NCBI GenBank assembly: GCA_029554345.1
Contig: JAKPJF010000193.1
Span: 1-45,974 of the forward strand
Reading direction: 5' to 3'
Length of the DNA: 45,974 nt
DNA from: Spirochaetota bacterium
GTDB lineage: Bacteria > Spirochaetota > UBA4802 > JAFGJZ01
In this document: piece after piece, positions 1 through 5,939 of the stretch
Layout: each line of letters begins with the position of its first letter
Numbering within the stretch: the stretch's first letter is position 1
Program-made: the position numbers and the translations under genes
Notes under the pieces: generated by a model
Database searches by the model: none
Seen by the model: only the letters and a program-made list of their open reading frames with translations
Told to the model about the DNA's origin: nothing

Positions 1-516
1 ATAAATCAATTCGGCCCCGAAAGGCGCCGATTGTAGTTTCATAAGATCAATGAAAACACGGGAATGCTGAAATAGAAAAAGCTGAATGAATAGAAAAAGA
101 ATTTAAACTATTCGGCGAAGCCGAATACAATATAAGCGCAGACTATCGCAGTCATTTCGAAGAAATGCGCGATAGTTCTGTCGCGACCAAAAGCCGGGTA
201 GGGATTTCAAAAGGGACAGGGCTGGCGACTGAAGCCCTGTCCCTTTTGATCTTATCGCATGAGACCATGCGAAACCGTATTACAAAGGCGAAGCCTTTGA
301 TTGTTTTGCATGACACCATGCAGAAACCGGATCTCAAAGGCGCTAGCCTTTGACTACAAGTCCGGTGACCGGACAAAACCGGGCTAATGGAGTGGAACAC
401 CCTTTGAAGAATGAAATACAACCAGACAGACGAAAAATCATTGACTTCTATACCGCTTCGTTCAACCTTATTGAACGGCGTAAAGCCGCGCCCGATAGCA
501 AGCGAAGGGGGCTCCT
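1..516. repeat. Non-coding hairpin array upstream of the HD-GYP gene
   Basis: This stretch has no convincing gene but about ten perfect or near-perfect stem-loops. They lie at 11-30 (GAAA loop, probably the end of an upstream transcript), 110-126, 142-176 (compound, inner stem 153-167), 207-249 (17-bp perfect stem), 256-271, 283-299, 307-322, 334-353, 360-374, 460-476 and 476-488. Loops of three to four bases dominate. Two stems (110-126, 283-299) carry the GCGAAGC core, known as an exceptionally stable mini-hairpin in DNA. Apparent open frames on both strands here simply follow from the palindromes. A structured RNA, a palindromic mobile repeat cluster or a protein-binding array are all possible; function unknown. 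Confidence 0.75.
256..353. repeat. Tandem repeat of a two-hairpin unit, two copies
   Basis: Copy 1 (256-300) and copy 2 (307-353) align over about 46 bp with roughly 83 percent identity. Each copy holds a 6-bp stem closed by a 4-base loop, a short linker beginning AAACCG, and a CAAAGGC/GCCTTTG stem. The first stem is closed by C256-G271 in copy 1 and T307-A322 in copy 2, a compensatory change that keeps pairing. Other differences fall mainly in loops and linker. Confidence 0.75.
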
Positions 517-5900: not shown

Positions 5901-5939
5901 ATCGGCGAAGGCCGATAATCTAAAGGACGATTTATCGGC
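5901..5939 (+). promoter_or_regulatory. Mutually exclusive stems in the zapB-like leader
   Basis: The segment GCCGAT at 5911-5916 can pair with ATCGGC upstream (5901-5906, loop GAAG). As GCCGATAA (5911-5918) it can instead pair perfectly with TTATCGGC at 5932-5939. The two structures exclude each other, as in attenuators and riboswitch-like leaders. No T-run follows the second stem, so control of translation is more likely than termination. Confidence 0.45.

Follow-up and report, generated by a model that had tools for sequence, protein, structure and literature searches.

A dispersed, modular hairpin element in an order of Spirochaetota that may fold as single-stranded DNA

The window analysed here, a whole stretch of 45,974 nucleotides at the start of a contig in a 3.03 Mb draft genome (96% complete), opens with a hairpin array that belongs to a multi-copy, intergenic repeat family in which ordered slots carry exchangeable alleles and modules are replaced, gained or lost as units. 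Compensatory Watson-Crick changes seen in aligned copies preserve the secondary structure throughout an order of Spirochaetota, and the family is strongly amplified and diversified in the genus to which this genome belongs. From these patterns we infer a folded single-stranded DNA form, past mobility and a mechanism of module exchange, and we lean towards a dispersed non-coding modular hairpin element that most likely folds as single-stranded DNA, spread in the past as a non-autonomous element and now recombines its modules.

The density of hairpins at the start of the window is far above expectation. Counting perfect, non-overlapping hairpins with a stem of at least 6 bp and a loop of 3-9 bases, positions 1-488 contain 10; in 300 dinucleotide shuffles the mean was 0.7 and the highest count 3. 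Restricting loops to 3-4 bases gives 7, against 0.25 in shuffled sequence (maximum 3 in 1000). When the 46 kb window is divided into 500-base bins, the first bin holds 9 hairpins and the runner-up 4. The folding z-score is -9.4 for positions 1-516 as RNA, while positions 100-400 score -11.4 as RNA and -14.2 as DNA. The dense array at 1-488 of the original prediction is thus real and is not reproduced by shuffling, although two details of its description need correction. The 17-bp stem (207-249) carries a 9-base loop instead of a tiny one; the array itself extends over about 11-376, whereas the region from 392 onwards is the conserved leader of the downstream HD-domain gene, so that the stem at 459-477 lies outside it. 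As the contig ends at position 1, the outermost 5' part of the array may be missing. The parts of the array and its flank are as follows.

11-30, + strand: module m0, 5'-most of the array, an imperfect hairpin TCGGCcc(gaaa)ggcGCCGA seen in the fold, with the same block in loci L010, L018 and L034
31-108, + strand: A-rich conserved 5' linker ending in TTTAAAC, with ~78% identity to L045 at the orthologous site and found again in other copies
109-127, + strand: slot 2 hairpin TATTCGGC(GAA)GCCGAATA, a slot with 14 distinct stems among 46 copies
136-184, + strand: slot 3 (allele 3b, one of four allele types 3a-3d), a bulged compound hairpin seen in the fold, inner part CATTTC(GAA)GAAATG
207-249, + strand: slot 5 (allele 5a), a hairpin of 17 bp whose 9-base loop GGCGACTGA at 224-232 is conserved
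255-272, + strand: slot 6 hairpin TCGCATG(AGAC)CATGCGA
283-299, + strand: slot 7a hairpin CAAAGGC(GAA)GCCTTTG
307-322, + strand: second slot 6 hairpin TGCATG(ACAC)CATGCA; the 6-7 pair recurs every ~51 bp
334-353, + strand: second slot 7a hairpin TCAAAGGC(GCTA)GCCTTTGA
360-374, + strand: slot 9 hairpin GTCCGG(TGA)CCGGAC, the final hairpin of the array
392-516, + strand: leader of the HD-domain gene, outside the array, containing the 459-477 stem; ~90-91% identical to and collinear with L045 in the sister species
517-1419, + strand: HD-domain protein gene (Pfam PF13487/PF01966), flanking and outside the element

The HD-domain protein has a 96% identical ortholog in the MAG Spirochaetes bacterium UR.bin167 (locus L045), and its gene is followed in the window by ispE-like, tRNA-Gln, nucleotidyltransferase, prs, L25 and pth genes. 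The loop GGCGACTGA is found on unrelated stems elsewhere in the same genome and, as GGCGNYTGA, across the order.

That the array is one of a palindromic repeat family, as had been proposed, was confirmed by searches of the genome and of a relative. Blastn against the same genome gave about 65 partial matches, each over different sub-blocks, and a covariance model of slots 2 and 3 (R1) gave at least 43 matches there and at least 32 in a sister genome of the same genus (G001, 66% complete, probably the MAG UR.bin167), these copy numbers being lower bounds; the same model found no match in the sister genus. Other copies and homologous structured regions in a relative therefore exist, and their absence, which would have refuted the original prediction, was not observed. 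Three R1 matches (L111, L113, L116) were discarded as chance after inspection. The copies occupy many intergenic contexts with ordinary neighbour genes, and the regions surrounding them fold as strings of perfect hairpins. A supposed relative of the array within the window, the ATCGGC-GAAG-GCCGAT stem at 5901-5916, is not supported as a member of the family: no other module is present there, R1 matches the window only at 106-194, and the stem is isolated and probably unrelated.

An array consists of about 10-15 hairpin slots in a set order, every slot being filled by one of several alternative alleles, and about 15 slot types exist overall, most of them multi-allelic. Across about 50 loci the slots keep the same order, which can be written as (m6 m5 m4 m3 m2)-(m1a/b/c or m0)-1-2-[2.5]-3(a-d)-5(a-c)-[6-7]n-8/9/10, with slots 6-7 present 1 to n times per array and the m series sometimes appearing again afterwards. 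Slots 3 and 5 are separated by only a few tens of bases; their alleles are nevertheless independent of each other (mutual information 0.208 against 0.230 in shuffled data, p=0.57, n=33), a pattern that free shuffling of modules would be expected to give. Within the main array every module points the same way. The modules m6-m2 beside it have TNC triloops on the + strand, which are GNA loops on the other strand (L012:1200-1430, L030, L042, L105), as though a second element lay there in the opposite orientation. One array closes, at L021:1287-1311, with the hairpin TTAAGGC(aaa)GCCTTAA, and this overlaps a convergent pyruvate kinase gene at its stop codon; arrays may therefore share terminator function.

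Exchange of modules is directly visible at orthologous sites. Searching 29 flank segments in the sister genome yielded six usable pairs with an array on both sides, which together with the window site makes seven. The array is present in the sister species at all seven comparable sites, and at six of them modules have been replaced or whole modules gained or lost. Single modules are exchanged within conserved flanks, as for slot 2 at L038/L079 and slot 3 at L021/L078, and whole hairpin pairs of 51-58 bp come and go; at L033/L081 slot 5 is altered alongside a 56-nt hairpin pair difference, and at the window site, L018/L075 and L012/L080 most of the array interior differs. The sole collinear pair (L009/L076) is nearly identical: one stem has changed on both sides (AAAGGC..GCCTTT to AAAGAC..GTCTTT), several changes break stems, and 18 nt have been lost by slippage. 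In g11, another genus of the order, two sites are filled in both species compared (L203/L204, L205/L206), with slot 3 exchanged likewise. At the purF 3' site of the same genus the element is present in one species and absent in four others, representing a gain or loss of the element, with the far flank non-syntenic and the exact boundary undefined. There were no empty sites among the comparable sites of G001, most flanks having no ortholog in this 66% complete genome, and since neither an exact empty site nor a target duplication was found at the sites compared, transposition itself stays putative.

Beyond the genus, weak R1 matches in other families of the order displayed the same architecture with a different sequence. 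A second model (R2), built from two such matches and allele 3d, found the element in 13 of 46 genomes of the order, several with many copies. Extended to hairpin 4 (R3), the model detected a core in 14 genomes from 8 genera, all in this one order among 393 Spirochaetota genomes searched, with zero matches in Spirochaetota outside the order and zero in seven genomes of other phyla, the latter a very small sample; as nine candidates per genome were scored, copy counts are minimum values. The core consists of hairpin 2, a bulged hairpin 3 and hairpin 4 with its GGCGNYTGA loop. Its consensus reads TCAAAAC, hairpin 2 (GTCCGCC..GGCGGAC), ACnnATC and the bulged hairpin 3, formed by S1 (GGGCG), CTGTYTGA, S2, S3 (CCGGC(GNA)GCCGG), S2', GAGTT and S1', followed by AGCC, hairpin 4 with a free stem and the loop GGCGNYTGA, and a long hairpin 5. 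In the other genera units measure about 170-230 nt and their flanks are apparently unrelated. Two-sided changes occur at 20 of 23 pairs, and 93.5% of cells are paired against 25-46% in slid controls (alignment A5), a paired fraction inflated by the fit of A5 to the covariance model; in the MAFFT-based alignment A2, hairpin 2 is 100% paired with 5 of 7 pairs changed on both sides. While the stems vary freely, the unpaired motifs TGTYTGA/GAGTT and GGCGNYTGA are invariant across families. A second dispersed multi-hairpin repeat, TTTCGCTCCGGAAGCCACATCCTGTGGCATCCTCGC[CGCCGCGCA(tcc)TGCGCGGCG], lies ~63-104 nt upstream of the element in L139/L203; it occurs in many places in four genomes (G013, G026, G031, G034) and has two-sided stem changes between species.

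Such compensatory evolution over the order, together with invariant unpaired motifs, would also suit structured non-coding RNAs or UTR elements expressed from many loci, with hairpins that fold as RNA and conserved loops to which a protein or a second RNA attaches. In a hand count, arrays most often have their upstream and downstream genes co-oriented, which is consistent with transcription; every gene-orientation context occurs, however, divergent ones included, and we regard the RNA explanation as unlikely, though it fares best among the alternatives. The pairing itself argues against it. Across 33 order-wide copies we counted 801 Watson-Crick, 11 G-U, 10 A-C and 75 other cells, and in 46 slot-2 hairpins 314 Watson-Crick pairs, 4 G-U pairs and 4 mismatches; tRNA stems in the same loci have G-U at 16 of 285 pairs, mismatches being left out of that count. 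G-U is as rare as A-C, which speaks against selection on RNA, where G-U should be tolerated far more, although a mutational process that re-perfects palindromes could give low G-U as well. The triloops, in turn, follow the DNA mini-hairpin rule rather than that of GNRA tetraloops. Among 69 distinct array hairpins with a 3-nt loop, 22 are C(GNA)G and 2 are C(TNC)G, compared with a background of 1 C(GNA)G among 221 triloop hairpins in 398 kb of the same genome, and the order-wide S3 loop comprises 16 C(GNA)G cores in which N is A in 6, C in 6, T in 3 and G in 1. DNA mini-hairpins of extraordinary stability follow the rule C(GNA)G (Yoshizawa et al., 1997, as relayed in PMC6479982 and PMC11101458), and d(GCGAAGC) is an extra-stable DNA mini-hairpin (Hirao, 1994, as relayed in PMC6582339). 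DNA-energy comparison gave like values for GNA and TNC loops with parameters that contain no GNA bonus, and the strand preference therefore rests on this published GNA-stability work as it is relayed there. Within the window no promoter signal rose above chance. Against Rfam 15 at its curated thresholds the array gave no match, and among 17 loci from element carriers the only one was a group II intron beside one array.

Rare G-U and strand-specific GNA triloops thus favour, rather than prove, folding of the + strand as single-stranded DNA, one of three options in the original prediction beside a palindromic repeat family and a multi-stem RNA. Arrays have no orientation bias with respect to the leading strand (15:10, p=0.42), unlike IS608-type lagging-strand elements.

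Another explanation is a class of REP/BIME type mobilised by a RAYT (Y1) transposase of the order, with the cognate enzyme since lost from the genus studied here. Of 18 genomes of the order tested, 17 do have Y1 transposases, and every element carrier outside that genus is among them. Yet no match to the Y1 transposase (PF01797) was found in the genome of the window nor in the 66% complete G001, so that the genus with most copies has none; element-free genomes (G002, G003, G004, G006, G008) also carry Y1 genes, and those Y1 genes inspected were flanked by other palindromes, for example of GGGGTCAGAGC types, or by none. We accordingly consider mobilisation by a RAYT doubtful. Two elements do lie within ~0.4 kb of Y1 genes (L131, RAYT-like gene at 494-1135 and element at 1501; L215, gene at 1489-1929 and element at 2202), but both adjacencies were spotted after the fact and the second gene is an IS200, making them a lead only. 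RAYT-like genes at L223 and L226 are flanked by GGGGTCAGAGC / GCTCTGACCCC repeats, and G008 has 15 Y1 matches.

Similarly improbable is a new recombination system that recognises the shape of hairpins and swaps or inserts individual modules, in which case the arrays could be combinatorial single-stranded DNA cassettes, attC-like but without genes or an integrase. The likeness to integron attC sites (PMC2727003) lies in free stem sequence, fixed unpaired features, exchange of units and folding of one DNA strand; the arrays differ in their perfect stems with GNA triloops and in having neither gene cassettes nor an IntI above cut-off. An integron proper was rejected, the best TIGR02249 match in the genome reaching 90.8 bits against a cut-off of 265. 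No consistent transposase was found to accompany the element. The genome encodes a single reverse transcriptase, the maturase (TIGR04416, 392 bits) of a group II intron that has domain V/VI and lies at L060:1-1795; a hairpin array starts within ~120 bp of the 3' end of this intron, which ends before the array, and a group II intron or retron source was rejected. Searches for a phage or plasmid origin gave no match, a match of module 5b to plasmids being short, of low complexity and not meaningful (40% of the query, E 0.5).

The least probable of these explanations is a neutral by-product, in which palindrome-perfecting template switching and gene conversion keep functionless relict repeats structured. 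Module replacement and concerted evolution are evident, and some copies have decayed stems (L076), but the unpaired motifs are conserved across families with free stems, which a palindrome-only process would not keep, and the element core persists in 8 genera.

Returning to the preferred reading of a modular element folding as single-stranded DNA, what is conserved would be one strand in its folded form, and most likely a DNA strand. Once the locus is made single-stranded, hairpins would form one after another, with extra-stable GNA triloops as their caps, and a putative structure-reading protein would meet unpaired motifs that stay constant (TGTYTGA opposite GAGTT, and the GGCGNYTGA loop). 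In the past, copies would have spread as non-autonomous elements served by a putative enzyme; in the genus studied, where no Y1 was found, insertion now looks quiet. At present the arrays may be remodelled when copies recombine ectopically, or templates are switched between them, at short conserved linkers, whereby single modules would be replaced and hairpin pairs of 51-58 bp added or removed.

The repeat family of the window array is apparently undescribed so far, and is best read as a new family of modular palindromic interspersed elements whose behaviour is BIME- or BOX-like without fully meeting either definition. BOX elements of Streptococcus pneumoniae are intergenic modular repeats with strong secondary structure that have been read as slow-moving parasites (PMC3049150). 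Compared by description only, they share with our arrays the interspersed intergenic assembly from strongly structured modules and the variable copy number of an inner module (here slots 6-7), but BOX has three module types (A, B, C) against about 15 slot types with independently assorting alleles, and in the core described here it is structure, not sequence, that a whole order has kept. REP/BIME elements with RAYT (PMC2817692, PMC3116915, PMC3733652) are likewise dispersed intergenic palindrome mosaics, and Y1 genes are common in the order. In the present family, by contrast, no cognate RAYT occurs in the genome or regularly beside the element, main-array modules face one way where REP/BIME palindromes alternate, and the unit is a multi-hairpin string of ~170-230 nt or more. 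In alignments A2 and A6, judged by eye only, hairpin 2 is invariably preceded by AAAC and followed by AC, and no GTAG or CGTC tag was seen next to the core hairpin.

It is shape rather than sequence that is inherited across this order of Spirochaetota, while the swapping of parts between copies outpaces change in the flanking genes. The scarcity of G-U together with strand-specific GNA triloops provides a simple test of selection on DNA versus RNA that could be used on other intergenic palindromes. The element thereby makes it testable which enzyme reads the shape of a DNA hairpin, and whether selection for folding as a single strand can shape the evolution of natural DNA.
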